Source: Roseococcus microcysteis
GTDB lineage: Bacteria > Pseudomonadota > Alphaproteobacteria > Acetobacterales > Acetobacteraceae
Reading direction: 5' to 3'
Assembly: GCF_014764365.1 (NCBI RefSeq)
Contig: NZ_CP061718.1
Coordinates: forward strand, 1,736,001-1,800,000
Length of the DNA stretch: 64,000 nt
Under the pieces are notes generated by a model. The model was given only the letters and a program-made list of their open reading frames with translations, was not told where the DNA came from and made no database searches. Numbering within the stretch: the stretch's first letter is position 1; each line of letters opens with the position of its first letter. Positions 5,988-61,526 of this stretch are shown one piece after another. The position numbers and the translations under genes were made by a program.

Positions 5988-6683
5988 TTACTTCTTCTTC
6001 GCCGGGGCGGCGGCGGCGGCGGCGGCAGGCGCCTTCGCGGCCGGCTTGGCCGCGGCCTTGCCGCCCTTCTTCGCGGGCTCGGCGGCGGCGACCGGGGCGG
6101 CCACCTCCTCGACCACGGTCGGCGGGGCGATGGTGGCCACCACGAAGTCGCGGCCGGTGATCACGGGCTTGGCGTCCGCCTTGTCCACCACGGCCGACCA
6201 GCGGATGCTGTCGCCGATCTTGGCTTCGGCCAGGTCAATGTGGAAGGTCTCGGGCACCGCCTCGGGGTCCACCAGCACTTCCAGTTCACGCCGGACCACG
6301 TTCAGCACGCCGCCCGCCTTCAGGCCGGGGCAGCTCTCCTCATGCTTGAACACGACCGGCACCTTGATGCGGATGCGGGCCCCCGGCGCCAGGCGCTGGA
6401 AGTCAATGTGGATGGGGCGGTCGGTCACGGGGTGGAACTGCACCTCGCGCAGAAGGGCGCGCTCGGTCGGGCCGTCCTTCACCACCACGTCATAGACGTG
6501 CGACTGCCAGGAGCCCTTGTGCAGCTCCTTCATGATGTCGCGGGGGTCGAAGGCGACCAGCGTGGCCTCCCGCTTCGCCCCATAGACGACACCGGGGACA
6601 AGCCCCTCTCGCCGGGTCGCGCGCGCCGCCCCCTTACCGGCACGCCCGCGCGCCTCGGCCTCGATCCGAATGGTCTGGACCAT
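5988..6683 (-). CDS. rplY: 50S ribosomal protein bL25, Ctc form
   Basis: 231 residues, the long TL5/Ctc-type bL25 that binds 5S rRNA. The N-terminal 5S-binding domain (TRREGLVPGVVYGAKREATLVAF) is followed by the beta-rich C-terminal domain. The last 40 or so residues are an Ala/Lys/Pro-rich tail ending in KKK, as in many Rhodospirillales. The start at 6683 is supported by AAGGAG seven bases upstream. It is the first gene of the rplY-pth-unknown-ychF row. The prs gene often found upstream in alphaproteobacteria is replaced here by a chemoreceptor gene. Confidence 0.95.
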   Translation of the reverse strand: MVQTIRIEAEARGRAGKGAARATRREGLVPGVVYGAKREATLVAFDPRDIMKELHKGSWQSHVYDVVVKDGPTERALLREVQFHPVTDRPIHIDFQRLAPGARIRIKVPVVFKHEESCPGLKAGGVLNVVRRELEVLVDPEAVPETFHIDLAEAKIGDSIRWSAVVDKADAKPVITGRDFVVATIAPPTVVEEVAAPVAAAEPAKKGGKAAAKPAAKAPAAAAAAAPAKKK

Positions 6684-6810
6684 GCCAGAAACTCCTTGCT
6701 GCGGGTATGTTTCGCCCCTGCCCAGGCAGATGCCCGAACGGAAGCAGGCGGCCTCCAGGGGTGCCGCCCTGGCGCGGGGTGTAGGCGATGCCGGCGCCGC
6801 CGGCAAGGTC

Positions 6811-8274
6811 TCAGGCGGCGCGCAGGCCCTCTGTCGTGTCCTGCAAGGTGTTGCGGAGGATCACGGCCTCGTTCCGGAGGGCATCGGCCATGCTTTCAAG
6901 CTCCGACACCGCCTCGGCCGTGCGCCCCATGCGGTCCACCGCCCGGCTCACCGCCGCCGCGGCGGCTTCGGTGCCCTGCGACACGGTGGCGCTGGCGCCC
7001 GCGATCTCACGCGTGGCCGTCCCCTGCTCCTCCACGGCCGAGGCGATGGTGCCGGCCACCTCATTCACCTCGCCCACCACCTGGCTGATGGCCTGGATGG
7101 CCGCCACGGCATCAGCGGTCGCGGCGCGGATGGCGCTGATCTGCTGGCCGATCTCCTCCGTGGCGCGGGCGGTCTGCCCGGCCAGGTTCTTTACCTCGCT
7201 CGCCACCACGGCGAAGCCCTTGCCGGCCTCACCGGCCCGCGCCGCCTCGATCGTCGCGTTCAGCGCCAGCAGGTTCGTCTGCCCCGCGATGTCGCTGATC
7301 AGGCGCAGCACGTCGCCGATGCGCTGCGCGCTATCCGACAGGCCGTTCACGATGGCCCCGGTGCTCTCGGTCTGGGCGGCGGCGCGGCCCGCGACCTGGC
7401 TGGCCTGGGCCACGCGCCGGGTGATCTCGCACACCGCCGCGGCCAGCTCCTCCGAGGCGGCGGCCACGGTCTGCACGCCGCTCGCCGCCTCGGCCACGGC
7501 GCTGCGGGCGGCCTCGGCCTGTTCCGCCGCGGCATTGGCTTCCCCGCTGATGCGGCGCGCGGCCTCGTCCAGCGCGGCCGATGCCGTGTCCACCTCGCGG
7601 GCCACGCCGCCCAGGGCGTGCTCCACGCTGTCCGCGGTGGCGGCGCGGGTGCGGCGGCTGGCGGCCTGGGATTCCGCCTCGCCGGCCAGGCGGCGCTGCG
7701 CCTCGACGGCCTCGGCGGCGCGGGCGGCGCGGGCCTCGGCCAGCGCGGCATCGGCCGCCGCCGCAGCCCGGGGCAGGCCACGCACCAGCAGCAGCAGCCC
7801 GCCCGCCTCCACCAGCAGGATGGCGGCATGCAGCAGCACCCGGCCGAGATTGCCGTCCGGCACGCCGAACACGGCCATGGGGGCCAGGTAGCTCAGCACC
7901 AGGTGGTGCAGGGCGACGGTGACGGTGGCCACCAGCACGGCGCGCCAGTCGCAATAGCCTGCCAGCAGCGCGAGGCCGGCGAAATAGGCCATATGCGCGT
8001 CCAGGGTCCAGGCGGCGGGCGCCAGCCAGACCTGGACGGAGATGGCCGCCATCAGCGCCACCGCCATGGTCTGCCCGGCCACGGGGCTGCCGGCGCCACG
8101 CCGTGCCGCGAGGCCCGCGGCCAGGGCCAGCAGCGCCACCCCGAGCGTGCCGAGGAGAAGGTCCTCCATCGGGGCGCTGGAGGAGAGCCCGACCAGGGGC
8201 GTCAATAGGATCATCCCCGCCATCAGGCACAGGAGGAAGCGGCCCGTCTGGGCGCGGAAATGCGTGAGGTCCAT
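6811..8274 (-). CDS. Methyl-accepting chemotaxis protein with a multi-span membrane sensor
   Basis: 487 residues. The N-terminal 165 or so residues hold about six hydrophobic segments (starting [18 protein letters not shown]) with short connecting loops, and no large periplasmic ligand domain. A long Ala-rich coiled coil follows. The signalling hairpin tip matches the family ([20 protein letters not shown] then [18 protein letters not shown]). The protein therefore couples an integral membrane sensor to CheA/CheW signalling. No HAMP domain is obvious. The start at 8274 places a short cytoplasmic tail ([12 protein letters not shown]) before the first membrane segment. A small membrane-protein gene lies 10 bases upstream on the same strand. 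No other che genes are nearby, so it is an orphan receptor. Confidence 0.88.
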
Positions 8275-56778: not shown

Positions 56779-56887
56779 GCTAGAGCGGGATGCGTTGAGG
56801 TGGAATCACCGAGAACGCTGAATCCCGCTCTCAACAAAGGTGAGAGCAGGCTGCGTGAACGCATGTGAACGCAGCATGCTCTAGAGA
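56779..56887. repeat. Double-hairpin element between convergent genes
   Basis: Two long stem-loops. The first pairs 56782-56791 (AGAGCGGGAT) with 56822-56831. The second pairs 56843-56856 with 56869-56882 (13 of 14 matches). Both outer ends carry TCTAGAGC-like sequence in inverted orientation, and the right end contains the TAG stop of the FkbM-like gene. It probably acts as a bidirectional terminator. The CTAGAGCG end also occurs at 35391 between another convergent pair, suggesting a dispersed element. Confidence 0.6.
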
Positions 56888-57939
56888 CCCGCCCGCCAGC
56901 CGGAATCGGTGGAAAGCACCAGGGTGGCGGGCCGCGCCAGCGCCCCCAGAAGGAAGCGGGTGACGGCGCCCTCCTCCTCCAGCCCATAGGCCTCGCCTTC
57001 CGGCGTGAAGGCGGTGGCGTGGGGGTAGAGCGCGCGCCAGGCCTCGACCACGGCGCGGGGATGGGTGGCGGGGTCGGCCAACGCCTCGGCCAGGTCGAAT
57101 TCCACCACCAGCAGCGTGCCGCGCGCGGCCAGGGCGGGCGCCCAGGCGGCCAGCCGCGCGCCCACCCCCGGCCCCGCCAGGCGCAGCACGTCGAGGCGCG
57201 AGAGCCCTTCCCGCGCCAGCAGCGCCTCGGGGTCATCCAGCGGCACGGCCAGGGCGCGGGCGCGCGGAAGGTCATTGGCCGCGATATGGGCCGAGAGCAG
57301 CGCGGCCGCGTGCAGGTCGGCCTCGAAGCCCAGCAGCGCGGCGTGGCCCGGCGCGCCGGCGGCAAGGCCCAGCAGCGACAACCCGATGCCCGCGCCATCA
57401 TCCAGGATCACGGCGCCCTCACCGCCTTCGGGCAGGGCGGCCCGCAGCAGCCGCGCCAACAGCGGCGCCGCGCCAGGGAAATCGGGCATGCCGAGGGCGC
57501 GGAGGGTGAAGCTGCGGCCCGCAAGGTGCAAGGCGCGCTCCGCGGGCGCTGGCAAAGCGGGCAGCCGGGCCAGGATTTCCGGCGCCTCCAGCAACAGGCG
57601 GCGCAGGCGGCGCAAATCCGGGCAGGCGGCGCGGACCGCTTCCACGGCGTCGGGTGCCGGCTGCACGCCATCGCGCAGCGCCAGCAGCGCGGCCACCGCC
57701 TCGGGCGTCACGGGGCCGAGCGTCCAGCCGCCGCGCTCCACGAAGCCGCCCAGCGCATGAGAGACGAATTCGGAGCTGCTCAGCACGCCTTCGCGCAGGC
57801 CGGTGAAATCGTCGCTGCCGGCCCAGGCGGCCAGCACGGACTCGCTCTCGGGCTCGCGGCCCAGCGCGAAGCGGTAGGTCCAGCGCACGAGGGAACGGCT
57901 CAGCCGGGGGGGCGCGCCGGCGCCGGTCTCTGCGTCCAT
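56881..57939 (-). CDS. FkbM-like methyltransferase with an N-terminal DUF4214-like region
   Basis: 352 residues. Residues 15-60 (RWTYRFALGREPESESVLAA and LSSSEFVSHAL) resemble the DUF4214 repeat of S-layer and glycosylation-linked proteins. From about residue 160 there is a Rossmann-like methyltransferase core of FkbM type: VILDDGAGIGLSLLGLAAGA, FEADLHAAALLSAHIAANDL, LDVLRLAGPG and LLVVEFDLA. The SAM-binding glycine motif is weak (DDGAGIG). A role in glycan or lipid modification is possible. It lies 55 bases after the DUF1194 gene on the same strand. The assignment is moderate because both halves are diverged. Confidence 0.65.
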   Translation of the reverse strand: MDAETGAGAPPRLSRSLVRWTYRFALGREPESESVLAAWAGSDDFTGLREGVLSSSEFVSHALGGFVERGGWTLGPVTPEAVAALLALRDGVQPAPDAVEAVRAACPDLRRLRRLLLEAPEILARLPALPAPAERALHLAGRSFTLRALGMPDFPGAAPLLARLLRAALPEGGEGAVILDDGAGIGLSLLGLAAGAPGHAALLGFEADLHAAALLSAHIAANDLPRARALAVPLDDPEALLAREGLSRLDVLRLAGPGVGARLAAWAPALAARGTLLVVEFDLAEALADPATHPRAVVEAWRALYPHATAFTPEGEAYGLEEEGAVTRFLLGALARPATLVLSTDSGWRAGL

Positions 57940-57994
57940 GCCGCCATATCCGGCCGCCGCCCGCGCGCCGTCAAGCCGAAGCCCCATGCGGGGC

Positions 57995-58699
57995 TCAGGC
58001 GATCTCGCGGATCAGCTTGCGGCGCACGGCCTGGGCGAAGACGTTGAAATCCTCGGCCACGATCATGAAGGCGCCGGGGCCGCCGATGACGTTCTGCGCG
58101 AAATACTGGTCCAGAGGCATGGGCGGCATCCGGCCGAAGGTGGGCCGGTCGTTCACGATGGGCAGGCCGTTGATGACGATGCCCTCGGCCACCGCCTCGT
58201 CCCGCGCCAGTTCCGAGGGGCGCCCGGAATTGTTCACCCCGTCGCCCGAGACATCAATGACGCGGCGCGTGCCCTCGAAGGGCGCCTCGGCCAGCACGCG
58301 GCGCGAGAAGTCGATCGCGCCCGAGATCGAGGTCCAGGAAATGGAGTTGCGCGGCGCCTCGGCCAGCGCGTCCACCCAGCGGTCGGCGTCGGCCTGGCTC
58401 GCGATGCGTGCCCAGGGCAGGATCAGGCGCTGGTACTCGATGCCCGCCCATTCGACATAGGCGACGGCGATGGCGCCGATCATGCCGCGGCCGATGGCCT
58501 CCACCACGCGCGGGTCGCCCAGCGCCTCGCGGTAGCCCTCGCGTTGCAGCCGGGCCTCCTCCTCGTCAATCGAGCGCGAGACATCCACGGCCAGCACCAG
58601 CAGCACATCCACGGGTTCGGCGGCGCGGGCGGGGCGGGGCGGGGCCGCCGCGGGCACGGCCAGGGCCGCGCCGGTCGTGAGAAGGGAACGCCGGTGCAT
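57995..58699 (-). CDS. DUF1194 protein with a von Willebrand A-like fold
   Basis: 234 residues. A twin-arginine-like signal (MHRRSLLTTGAALAVPAAA) precedes a VWA-type domain. The metal-ion-dependent adhesion motif AVDVSRSID appears at about residue 38, together with GVNNSGRP and RVIDVSGDG for the remaining metal ligands. DUF1194 is common in alphaproteobacteria and has no defined function; a periplasmic protein-protein binding role is likely. It is 94 bases downstream of the catalase-like gene and upstream of the FkbM-like gene. Confidence 0.9.
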   Translation of the reverse strand: MHRRSLLTTGAALAVPAAAPPRPARAAEPVDVLLVLAVDVSRSIDEEEARLQREGYREALGDPRVVEAIGRGMIGAIAVAYVEWAGIEYQRLILPWARIASQADADRWVDALAEAPRNSISWTSISGAIDFSRRVLAEAPFEGTRRVIDVSGDGVNNSGRPSELARDEAVAEGIVINGLPIVNDRPTFGRMPPMPLDQYFAQNVIGGPGAFMIVAEDFNVFAQAVRRKLIREIA

Positions 58700-58793
58700 G
58701 GGCAGGCCTCCATTCGATCAAGCGTCATGGAAGCGAAACCGGGGCGCGAGGTGCAAGCTTATTCGGCACCGCAGCCATGGGTTGTGGCGCGCG

Positions 58794-59783
58794 CTACTCG
58801 GCCGCCCGCAGGAAGGGGCGCGGCCGCAGGCGGCGCAGCAGCCCCGCGCCCAGTTCGGCATCCGCCGCGGTGAAGAGGTCCAGCAGCCGGCGCGTGGTCG
58901 CCTCCGGCAGGCCGTGCAGGGCGGCGGCCAGGCGGTCCATCAGCCTTGCGCGTTCGGCGCCCTCCAGCCCGCGGTAGAAGGCGCCGGCGGGCGGCTCCCC
59001 CGCGCCGGGCCGCCGTGGCGCGCGCGGTGCCAGGGCCATGCCGGGCAAGGCAGGCCGGGCGGCCAGGCGGGGCGCGATGTCCAGCCGCCCCTCCAGCGCG
59101 ACGATTCCCACCTCGATCAGCGGCCAGCGCACGCTGGGCCAGAGGCGCGTCGCGTCGAAGGCGTCGAAGGGGGCCTCACGCGCCTCGGCCTCGGACATGA
59201 TCTGCACGCAGAGCCGCCAGCGCGCGGGCGCCTCGGGGGTCAAGGCGCCGAACAGGGCGCGCGGGTCCAGCCCCTCGGCGGGCCCTTCCCCCTGCAAGGG
59301 CACCAGGTGCAGCCGGCACCAGAGCTGGCGCCCGTCGCGCTCCAGCGCATAGGCCTCGGCACCGAAGAAGGGCGCGGCGCGCCAGGACCGCGGCCAGGCG
59401 GCATCGGCGAAGCCGTGCAGGATGGCGTGCAGCGTCGGCGGGTGGTGCGCGCAGAATTCCCACAGCGCCGCCGGGCCTTGGGTCACGGCCTCGCCCATGG
59501 CGGCGCGCTGGTCCGGGCGGCGCAGGAATTCCACCGGCAGGCGGCGCAGCGGCAATTCCCAGGGGCCATCCTCGGTGTGCAGCGTCAGCGTGAGTGGCGC
59601 CGGCGGGAACACCGCCTCCCCCTCGGCGGGCAGCCGCAGCCAGAGCGGGGTGGCCTTCCCCCGTTCCGCGAACAGCCGCGCGCGGGTGAGGCAGGTGATG
59701 TCGCCGGTCACGACCAACCGGCCCCGCGCGGCGGGTGCGGCGGGGCCGCGCCGGGGCATCGCCGGCAAGGGGCGCTGCGCCAT
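58794..59783 (-). CDS. Catalase-fold protein lacking heme and catalytic residues (probable pseudoenzyme)
   Basis: 329 residues with a strong ribosome site (AGGGAGG). Alignment by eye to monofunctional catalases is clear over residues 20-250. GRLVVTGDITCLTRARLF matches the catalase THDIT-YTRAKLF block, and TLHTEDGPWEL, GPAALWEFCAHHPPTLH, CVQIMSEAEAREAPFDAFD and RLWPSVRWPLIEVG all have counterparts. The C-terminal helical part (FYRGLEGAERARLMDRLAAA) is also catalase-like. The catalytic His region (VVHARG) is replaced by Pro/Ala sequence, the distal Asn segment (GNNTPIFF) reads LPLRRLPVEFL, and the segment carrying the heme-ligand Tyr is absent. It is therefore unlikely to bind heme in the usual way. 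oxyR lies about 0.8 kb away. Confidence 0.8.
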   Translation of the reverse strand: MAQRPLPAMPRRGPAAPAARGRLVVTGDITCLTRARLFAERGKATPLWLRLPAEGEAVFPPAPLTLTLHTEDGPWELPLRRLPVEFLRRPDQRAAMGEAVTQGPAALWEFCAHHPPTLHAILHGFADAAWPRSWRAAPFFGAEAYALERDGRQLWCRLHLVPLQGEGPAEGLDPRALFGALTPEAPARWRLCVQIMSEAEAREAPFDAFDATRLWPSVRWPLIEVGIVALEGRLDIAPRLAARPALPGMALAPRAPRRPGAGEPPAGAFYRGLEGAERARLMDRLAAALHGLPEATTRRLLDLFTAADAELGAGLLRRLRPRPFLRAAE

Positions 59784-59893
59784 GTCTCGTTCCTCCCTGG
59801 ACGGGTGTCGCGCCCCCGGAAGGGCACGCCCCGACCTTGTGATTGCAGGAAGGCTAGAACGGGCCGCCGACGGATTGCCAGCTTTCCGGTGGC

Positions 59894-60517
59894 TCAGCGC
59901 TGGGCGATCACATAGCCGCGCCGCGAGGGGTATTCATGGCCTTCCACCGGCGGGCGGGCCCGGCTCTCGACCAGGGTGAAGCCCGCCGCCCGCAGCGCCG
60001 CCTCCAATTCGCCGGGGGCGAAGAGGCGGAAGCCCAGCCCCACCTCCACGCCCCACATCCGCCCCGGCCGCAGCACGCCCTCGCCCAGATGGACCGCGGC
60101 GCGGAACTGCCCGCCTGGCCGCAGCGCGGCATGGCAGGCGGCGAGCGCGCGCGGCAGGTCCGAACCTTCCAGATGGATCAGCGAATACATGGCGAGCAGC
60201 CCAGCGAAGCGACCCGGCGCCGCGTCGAGCGCCCGCAGGTCCCCCACCTCGAAGCGCAGCCCGGGATGGGCGGCACGGGCGGCCTCCACCATGCCGGGCG
60301 AGAGGTCGAGGCCCAGCACCTCCGCGCCTTCTTCCGCCAAAAAGGCCGTGACGTGGCCTGGGCCGCAGCCCGCATCTCCCACCAGGCCGCGCCCGGCCAT
60401 GGCGCGGGCGAAACCCCGCAGCCATTCGCGGTCCATGGGCTTGTGCGCCAGTTCGCCCGAAACCTCGCGCCGGTAGGCGGAGGCGAGGGCGTCGTAGTCG
60501 CGTGCGACAGGGTCCAT
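59894..60517 (-). CDS. Class I SAM-dependent methyltransferase
   Basis: 207 residues. It has motif I VGDAGCGPGHVTAFLAEEGA, motif II LGLDLSPGMVEAAR, LRFEVGDLRALD, and a motif IV region FAGLLAMYSLIHLE. It belongs to the methyltransferase 11/25-type small-molecule group. The start at 60517 precedes MDPVARDYDALASAYRREV, the usual N-terminal helix. It is divergent from oxyR with 76 bases between starts, so OxyR could control it. Substrate unknown. Confidence 0.85.
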   Translation of the reverse strand: MDPVARDYDALASAYRREVSGELAHKPMDREWLRGFARAMAGRGLVGDAGCGPGHVTAFLAEEGAEVLGLDLSPGMVEAARAAHPGLRFEVGDLRALDAAPGRFAGLLAMYSLIHLEGSDLPRALAACHAALRPGGQFRAAVHLGEGVLRPGRMWGVEVGLGFRLFAPGELEAALRAAGFTLVESRARPPVEGHEYPSRRGYVIAQR

Positions 60518-60593: not shown

Positions 60594-61526
60594 ATGATCC
60601 TCCCTTCGCCACAGCAGCTTCGCTACCTGACCGCCTTGGCCGAGCACGGGCATTTCGGGCGCGCGGCGGCGGCCTGCGCGGTGACGCAATCCACGCTCTC
60701 CGCCGGGCTGCTGGCGCTGGAACGGCAGCTCGACGCCGCGCTGATCGAGCGCGGGGCCTCGAAGCGCCCCGTCTTCACGCCCACGGGGCTGGAGGTGGTG
60801 GCACGCGCCCGCGTGGCGCTGGCGGCACTCGAGGCGGTGGCGGAAAGCGCTTCGGCGGGGCGCGACCCGCTCTCCGGGCCACTGCGCCTGGGCGTGATCC
60901 CGACCATCGGCCCCTTCCTGCTGCCGCGGCTGATGCCCGCGCTGCGCGCCGCCTTCCCGCGCTTGAAGCTCTACCTGCGCGAGGACATGACCGAGCGGCT
61001 GATGGCCCAGCTCGACGCCGGCAAGCTCGACCTGTTGCTGCTCGCCCTGCCCTGCGACTGCGCGGCGGCGGAGGTGGAGCCCATCGGCCGCGACCCCTTC
61101 CTGCTGGCCCTGCCCCCCGGCCACCGGCTGGCCTCCCAGCCCGAGGTGCGGCTCTGCGCCCTGGCCGCCGAGACGGTGCTGCTGCTGGAGGATGGCCATT
61201 GCCTGCGCGCCCAGGCGCAGGAGGCCTGCGGCCTGCCGCGTGGCCTCAGCGCCCATGAGGGCTTCGCCGCCACCTCACTGCACACGCTGGTGCAGATGGT
61301 GGCCGGCGGCCTGGGCGTCACGCTGCTGCCGCGCCTGGCCGCGGAGGGCGGCGTGCTGGCGGGCACGGAGCTGGTGCTGCGCCCCTTGGTGGCGGATGCG
61401 GCGGGCGAGGCCGTGCCGGCCCGCACCCTCGCCCTGGCCTGGCGGCCGCGCAGCCCCCGCGCGGGCGCCTTCCGCGACCTGGCGCGGGCCATCGCGCAGC
61501 GGCTGGAACCGGCCGCCGGCGTCTGA
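60594..61526 (+). CDS. oxyR: Hydrogen-peroxide sensor regulator OxyR (LysR family)
   Basis: 310 residues. The N-terminal LysR winged helix (LRYLTALAEHGHFGRAAAAC and VTQSTLSAGLLALERQL) is followed by a substrate-binding-like sensor domain. The redox pair is present: Cys203 and Cys212 in LLEDGHCLRAQAQEAC, at the same eight-residue spacing as Cys199/Cys208 of E. coli OxyR. TSLHTLVQMVAGGLGVTLLP also matches OxyR. The start at 60594 follows GGGGGAG. No true katG, katA or ahpC is in the window; the nearest possible partner is the degenerate catalase-like gene. Confidence 0.92.
   Translation: MILPSPQQLRYLTALAEHGHFGRAAAACAVTQSTLSAGLLALERQLDAALIERGASKRPVFTPTGLEVVARARVALAALEAVAESASAGRDPLSGPLRLGVIPTIGPFLLPRLMPALRAAFPRLKLYLREDMTERLMAQLDAGKLDLLLLALPCDCAAAEVEPIGRDPFLLALPPGHRLASQPEVRLCALAAETVLLLEDGHCLRAQAQEACGLPRGLSAHEGFAATSLHTLVQMVAGGLGVTLLPRLAAEGGVLAGTELVLRPLVADAAGEAVPARTLALAWRPRSPRAGAFRDLARAIAQRLEPAAGV

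Follow-up and report, generated by a model that had tools for sequence, protein, structure and literature searches.

The window analysed here, i.e., the whole stretch of 64,000 nucleotides from Roseococcus microcysteis, encodes on its minus strand (58794..59783) a protein of 329 amino acids, designated pCat, which is probably a pseudoenzyme of the catalase family, free of heme, specific to one clade and retained for a function other than catalysis; we infer that this role is probably one in peroxide stress. By the sequence features tested, pCat is a catalase-family pseudoenzyme, a relative of the catalases by descent and not a catalase itself. The parts of this reading differ in strength: judging from its residues, pCat is very likely to work without heme and without catalysis, its retention for a non-catalytic role is likely, and its involvement in peroxide stress is plausible.

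The preliminary description of this DNA, made from the letters alone, had proposed an intact frame of 329 codons with a ribosome site and with recognisable parts of a catalase, and these points were recovered in our analysis. The frame is intact and starts with ATG, and GGAGG is located 8 nt before this codon. The 26-nt leader that includes this site (59784..59809, minus strand) is identical in all three species found to carry the gene, and a block starting with GTTCTAG (59829..59860, minus strand) is a candidate promoter, inferred from conservation among three species only. The protein is composed of the barrel (residues 16–237), a shortened linker (238–265) and C-terminal helices (266–327). 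The Pfam Catalase profile (PF00199), a search proposed in the preliminary description, covers residues 18–231 well above its cut-off (4.2e-26; 92.4 bits against 25), as it does for both orthologs (89.5 and 97.3 bits), and Catalase-rel covers residues 266–315 at its margin (5e-7; 30.2 bits against 30.1); the NCBIfam model for catalase HPII gave 38.6 bits, far below its cut-off of 1102. The best solved chain by sequence is the Proteus mirabilis catalase (PMC, 1m85; E 1.4e-30), and the best 60 of 91 distinct PDB sequences found at E of 0.001 or less are catalases or catalase-phenol oxidases.

Two AlphaFold2 runs were made with 10 and 13 input sequences, and the alignment was made of catalases, which favours a catalase fold in the models. 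Their quality was moderate (mean pLDDT 66.9 and 73.2; pTM 0.63 and 0.71), and the second model has eight long strands, fitting the catalase barrel, plus the C-terminal helices. When both models were searched with Foldseek, the best 50 rows of each search were all catalases (best E 1.5e-17 and 5.1e-20). Whole-chain TM scores by query length among the rows listed were 0.49–0.54 (rmsd 9–12 A) for the first model and 0.51–0.59 (7–11 A) for the second, and because these values are low, only the core of the fold is secure. Within this limit, profile matches and predicted models show that pCat keeps a recognisable catalase barrel and C-terminal helices.

The active site was examined in an alignment of the three pCats and 49 catalases, with columns numbered as in PMC and residues given their usual roles in catalases (distal, stacking, axial, etc.); a PDB title, 'Inactive mutant H54F', agrees with the role of His54. 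The 49-catalase set leaves aside three SrpA-like rows (L053, L057 and L069), retains near-identical Paenibacillus rows and includes three catalases without the distal Asn (L027, L036 and L081). Before counting, 11 ORFs were left out, namely duplicate pCat loci (L001, L003, L004, L060 and L063), duplicates of other loci (L005 and L030), fragments (L052 and L068), a long ORF taken for SrpA-like (L062) and L080, whose frame was misread, and N-terminal extensions of other rows were trimmed; ten PF00199 loci of the genus (L054–L056, L058, L059, L061 and L064–L067) gave no row at the E limit of 1e-8 and stand outside the count.

The distal His (PMC H54) is His in all 49 catalases and in none of the three pCats; it cannot be present there because the first His of every pCat is residue 69. 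The distal Ser (S93; 49 of 49) is Pro in the three pCats (P52), the distal Asn (N127; 46 of 49) is Arg (R80), and the heme-stacking Phe (F140; 49 of 49) is Arg (R93); the distal Phe (F132; 48 of 49) is Glu in pCat (E85). Arg333 and the axial Tyr337, present in 49/49 catalases, fall in a segment deleted from all three pCats, whose sole two Tyr residues (145 and 270; 145 and 276 in Roseococcus suduntuyensis) do not align with Tyr337. The losses of the distal His, Ser and Asn, the stacking Phe and the axial Arg/Tyr are identical across the three species. The preliminary description was thus right that the His, Asn and axial-Tyr segments are replaced or deleted, and the list is to be extended by S93, F132, F140 and Arg333; it had called the lost His proximal, and here the loss stands and the adjective does not, the catalytic His of catalases being the distal one. 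The chain has also been shortened: 12 residues (ungapped) or 14 (MAFFT) precede the His54 position, against 53 in PMC, and the axial-Tyr loop is reduced, with residues 246–253 (LPGMALAP) echoing VPGIGFSP, the sequence that immediately precedes the axial Tyr in catalases. PMC R51 and R91, which we take to be heme-propionate contacts, align with Arg in 3/3 pCats, although the N-terminal alignment is uncertain. On the level of sequence, Arg80, Glu85 and Arg93, in place of Asn127, Phe132 and Phe140, argue against heme and in favour of a polar cavity or of salt bridges inside the protein.

Among the matches listed, pCat orthologs occur in three Roseococcus species only (3 of 397 genomes of the family, the genus providing 14 of those listed): the window copy, that of R. 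suduntuyensis DSM 19979 (93% identity; 91% by tblastn) and that of R. thiosulfatophilus RB-3 (88%). The R. suduntuyensis gene (L034, approximately 6001–7005) carries an in-frame, Gly-Glu-rich insertion of 6 codons in a loop. No further full-length relative was found in the 397 family genomes (among the matches listed), 395 order genomes (E limit 1e-25) and 398 phylum genomes (1e-20), these sets overlapping; under these limits and the family listing, the searches could have overlooked a strongly diverged relative. The nearest matches beyond the pCats, among those listed, had E values of 9e-40 (L005) and 1.5e-31 (G1135). A class search of 385 genomes, with a profile that included a true catalase, gave 633 bits for the window gene and 327 for the next match with none between; eight of nine other loci were examined (L081–L088) and all have the His and Tyr, L080 and weak short matches in G707, G731 and G466 standing outside this check. 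None of the 453 plasmid records matching pCat covers 80% of it at a single site, nine loci on viral contigs match at 32% identity or less, and PADLOC gave no match. The preliminary description had asked whether the losses mark a clade; they do so for three Roseococcus species, and a widespread family was not found among the genomes searched.

The pCat gene is the sole PF00199 match in its own one-contig genome. Some PF00199 match exists in 17 of 21 genomes of the genus. These matches include the three pCats, a full-length match within a 786-codon frame in G322 and catalase fragments in G402, and most of the others are short proteins that we class as SrpA-like; R. thiosulfatophilus has one such short protein in addition to pCat. 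This last protein (L069; G044:C12:340570-341406) has Gly in the distal-His column, where the alignment is uncertain.

In a first tree pCat joined L081 (82/93) on a very long stem branch, and in a tree made without far outgroups it fell outside the catalases with a branch length of 6.3 (in a midpoint drawing only). Long-branch attraction is therefore likely, the placements differing with the outgroups and the branch being so long. An earlier loss of the distal Asn than of the other pCat residues is therefore no more than hinted at. Three catalases that have the His and Tyr and are without the distal Asn, i.e., L036 (5917–7200; His), L027 (127–1302; Ser) and L081 (from approximately 1507; Ser), may be partly altered catalases; that of L081 is divergent from an OxyR of 46% identity.

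Comparison with known proteins can be made on several levels. The monofunctional heme catalases PMC and Pseudomonas KatA, presumably members of 'clade 3', have the barrel and C-terminal helices in common with pCat, which has 24% identity to PMC in the fold alignment; unlike them, pCat is without the distal His, Ser and Asn, the stacking Phe and the axial Arg/Tyr, as well as the N-terminal arm and the loop that leads into the C-terminal helices, and has 329 residues against approximately 480. Beyond the three species, the relative with the highest score among the matches listed is a catalase of the Acetobacteraceae MAG clean385 (L036/L005), with a barrel identity of 40% (tblastn) to 44% (genome search). 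It has likewise lost the distal Asn (to His) and has a short N-terminus (428 residues, if the chosen Met is the start), but in contrast to pCat it keeps the His, Ser, stacking Phe and axial Arg/Tyr, scores 3.7e-121 with Pfam Catalase and has no oxyR match in its 12.7-kb locus. The catalase-related peroxidases of the genus that we label SrpA-type (L053, L057 and L069) belong to the same superfamily and are near pCat in size, but they keep the axial Arg/Tyr, which is absent from the pCats. The catalase-related allene oxide synthases and hydroperoxide lyases are, as pCat would be, relatives of catalase that took up another use; they are heme enzymes. In PMC10441885 the terms 'pseudo-catalase' and 'heme-free catalase' denote manganese catalases; these belong to another protein family and have only the name in common with pCat. 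PMC10836395 mentions iron-poor loading of a normal catalase.

Whether pCat is a gene in use or a catalase in decay can be judged from its evolution. We estimated pairwise dN/dS by NG86 with 1000 codon bootstraps, for three pairs that are not independent and whose GC-rich third positions can bias dS, and obtained 0.216 (0.131–0.352), 0.218 (0.141–0.317) and 0.298 (0.197–0.436). Neutrality would give 4.2, 6.6 and 5.9 stops in the respective pairs and none was observed; changes at the first, second and third codon positions number 15, 14 and 49; 20, 19 and 77; and 23, 26 and 71, the third position taking most, and the sole change in length involves complete codons. The frame is therefore under purifying selection and the gene is maintained, as the preliminary description had claimed. 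The neighbouring genes for YmdB, OxyR, YjbH, DUF1194 and the methyltransferase have values of 0.03–0.18 and an FkbM-like gene 0.19–0.23; because the pCat values exceed those of most neighbours, though close to the FkbM-like gene, the constraint is relaxed. Opposite-strand coding in a long ORF (58677..59915, plus strand) was rejected as the source of the constraint, its phase having a dN/dS of 1.8–2.7; another antisense phase gave 0.31–0.41, a value that we regard as artefactual, since this phase shares its third codon positions with pCat.

A recently inactivated catalase, open by chance, functionless and heading for loss, would account for the very long stem branch, the dN/dS above that of most neighbours, the restriction to three species and the presence of other scavengers in the genome. 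Such decay is nevertheless unlikely, when three copies are intact against four to seven neutral stops expected per pair, the upper bounds of dN/dS lie below 0.44, changes and the single length difference respect the codon frame, and the leader is identical in the three species.

The surroundings of the gene suggest a connection with peroxide. On the minus strand of the window genome, the order is a class I methyltransferase (59894..60517; start set by homolog comparison), pCat, a DUF1194 protein (57995..58699) and a presumably FkbM-like gene (56881..57987) with no Pfam match; an OxyR-type LysR regulator (60594..61526, plus strand; best NCBIfam model OxyR, 240 bits, below the cut-off of 329) is divergent from them. 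The nearness to oxyR noted in the preliminary description is thus real, but oxyR is the next-but-one gene, with the methyltransferase gene between, an arrangement found in two of the three pCat species; in the 13-kb locus of R. suduntuyensis no methyltransferase match was found and pCat is directly divergent from oxyR. Among the matches listed, 10 of 18 other genus members have an OxyR ortholog with 74% identity or more, and none of these ten regions (L070–L079), three of which extend for just 3.1, 3.6 and 7.2 kb before the contigs end, has a pCat match. A peroxide scavenger (KatG, AhpC or Mn-catalase) is near oxyR in seven of the ten: a KatG-type peroxidase adjoins it in four (one a contig-end fragment), an Mn-catalase with AhpC is near it in two (an AhpD-like CMD gene was checked in L078), and AhpC lies beyond the methyltransferase in one (the AhpC of L079 was read by eye). 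The gene on the upstream side of oxyR varies in Roseococcus: it may be KatG, an Mn-catalase followed by AhpC, a methyltransferase (accompanied by AhpC or not) or pCat. From these gene contents, the upstream side of oxyR is evidently a hotspot of peroxide genes in the genus, and pCat therefore sits where the genus keeps them. This location is circumstantial support for an oxidative-stress origin of pCat, not proof of current regulation.

The DUF1194 protein, proposed earlier as a partner of pCat, is rejected as such and is a neighbour only. Its homologs exist in 21 of 21 genus genomes, and among nine loci examined outside the three-species group (of 18 such genomes), with at most 1.5 kb on each side, none has a pCat match in that stretch and eight have the FkbM-like gene adjoining. 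The window genome itself has five DUF1194 matches, the one at 57995–58699 and four in other places, one of them read through a TGA stop.

Besides pCat, the window genome encodes a KatG (two half-domain matches in one 779-aa frame), two Mn-catalases and one peroxiredoxin (a 1-Cys-Prx-C protein); peroxide removal would therefore not need to depend on pCat. On the preferred reading of a maintained pseudoenzyme, the ancestor would be a monofunctional heme catalase in which the N-terminal arm and the loop between the barrel and the C-terminal helices were cut down, so that pCat would neither bind heme in the catalase pocket nor dismutate peroxide. Scavenging would be left to KatG, the Mn-catalases and the peroxiredoxin, and pCat would be kept for a non-catalytic role in a peroxide-response neighbourhood, most likely by binding a partner protein or a small ligand inside or close to what was once the heme cavity, now furnished with Arg80, Glu85 and Arg93.

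A more specific function can be imagined, in which this charged cavity together with Cys31, Cys111 and Cys156 would detect peroxide itself or bind a ligand derived from it, with input to the OxyR-centred response; as a peroxide-responsive regulator of this kind, pCat is a rather doubtful candidate. A thiol redox protein, with the three Cys as a peroxide-reactive or disulfide switch on the catalase scaffold, is improbable. The OxyR neighbourhood would suit it, and the three Cys are present in 3/3 pCats and new in the clade, catalases having mostly R/K/Q at the column of Cys31, W/F/A at that of Cys111 and V at that of Cys156 (one Cys in 49). However, at 88–93% identity three residues would be expected to persist by chance, so that their presence is weak evidence, and the sequence has no CXXC motif. 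A heme protein with a new axial ligand (e.g., H69, C111, H114 or H123), such as a peroxidase or heme carrier, would fit the Arg in both presumed propionate columns and the new His at 69, 114 and 123, but it is very improbable with Arg for the stacking Phe140, Glu for the distal Phe132 and the axial segment deleted.

Our literature search, which covered few subscription papers, found no recognisable report of a catalase-fold protein without heme ligands, and a search on Roseococcus and catalase found nothing on the pCat gene. For annotation, pCat serves as a warning, in that it passes the Pfam Catalase cut-off and could be called a catalase though it is hardly one. The fold of catalase, a textbook enzyme, goes together with heme, and a maintained relative without the known heme contacts would show the fold persisting without its cofactor. 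If the regulator reading is true, pCat would represent a class of sensors built on the catalase fold without heme. The protein would be a small natural system in which to study what else, apart from peroxide breakdown, the catalase scaffold can do, and a famous enzyme fold appears here to have been kept for some other job.
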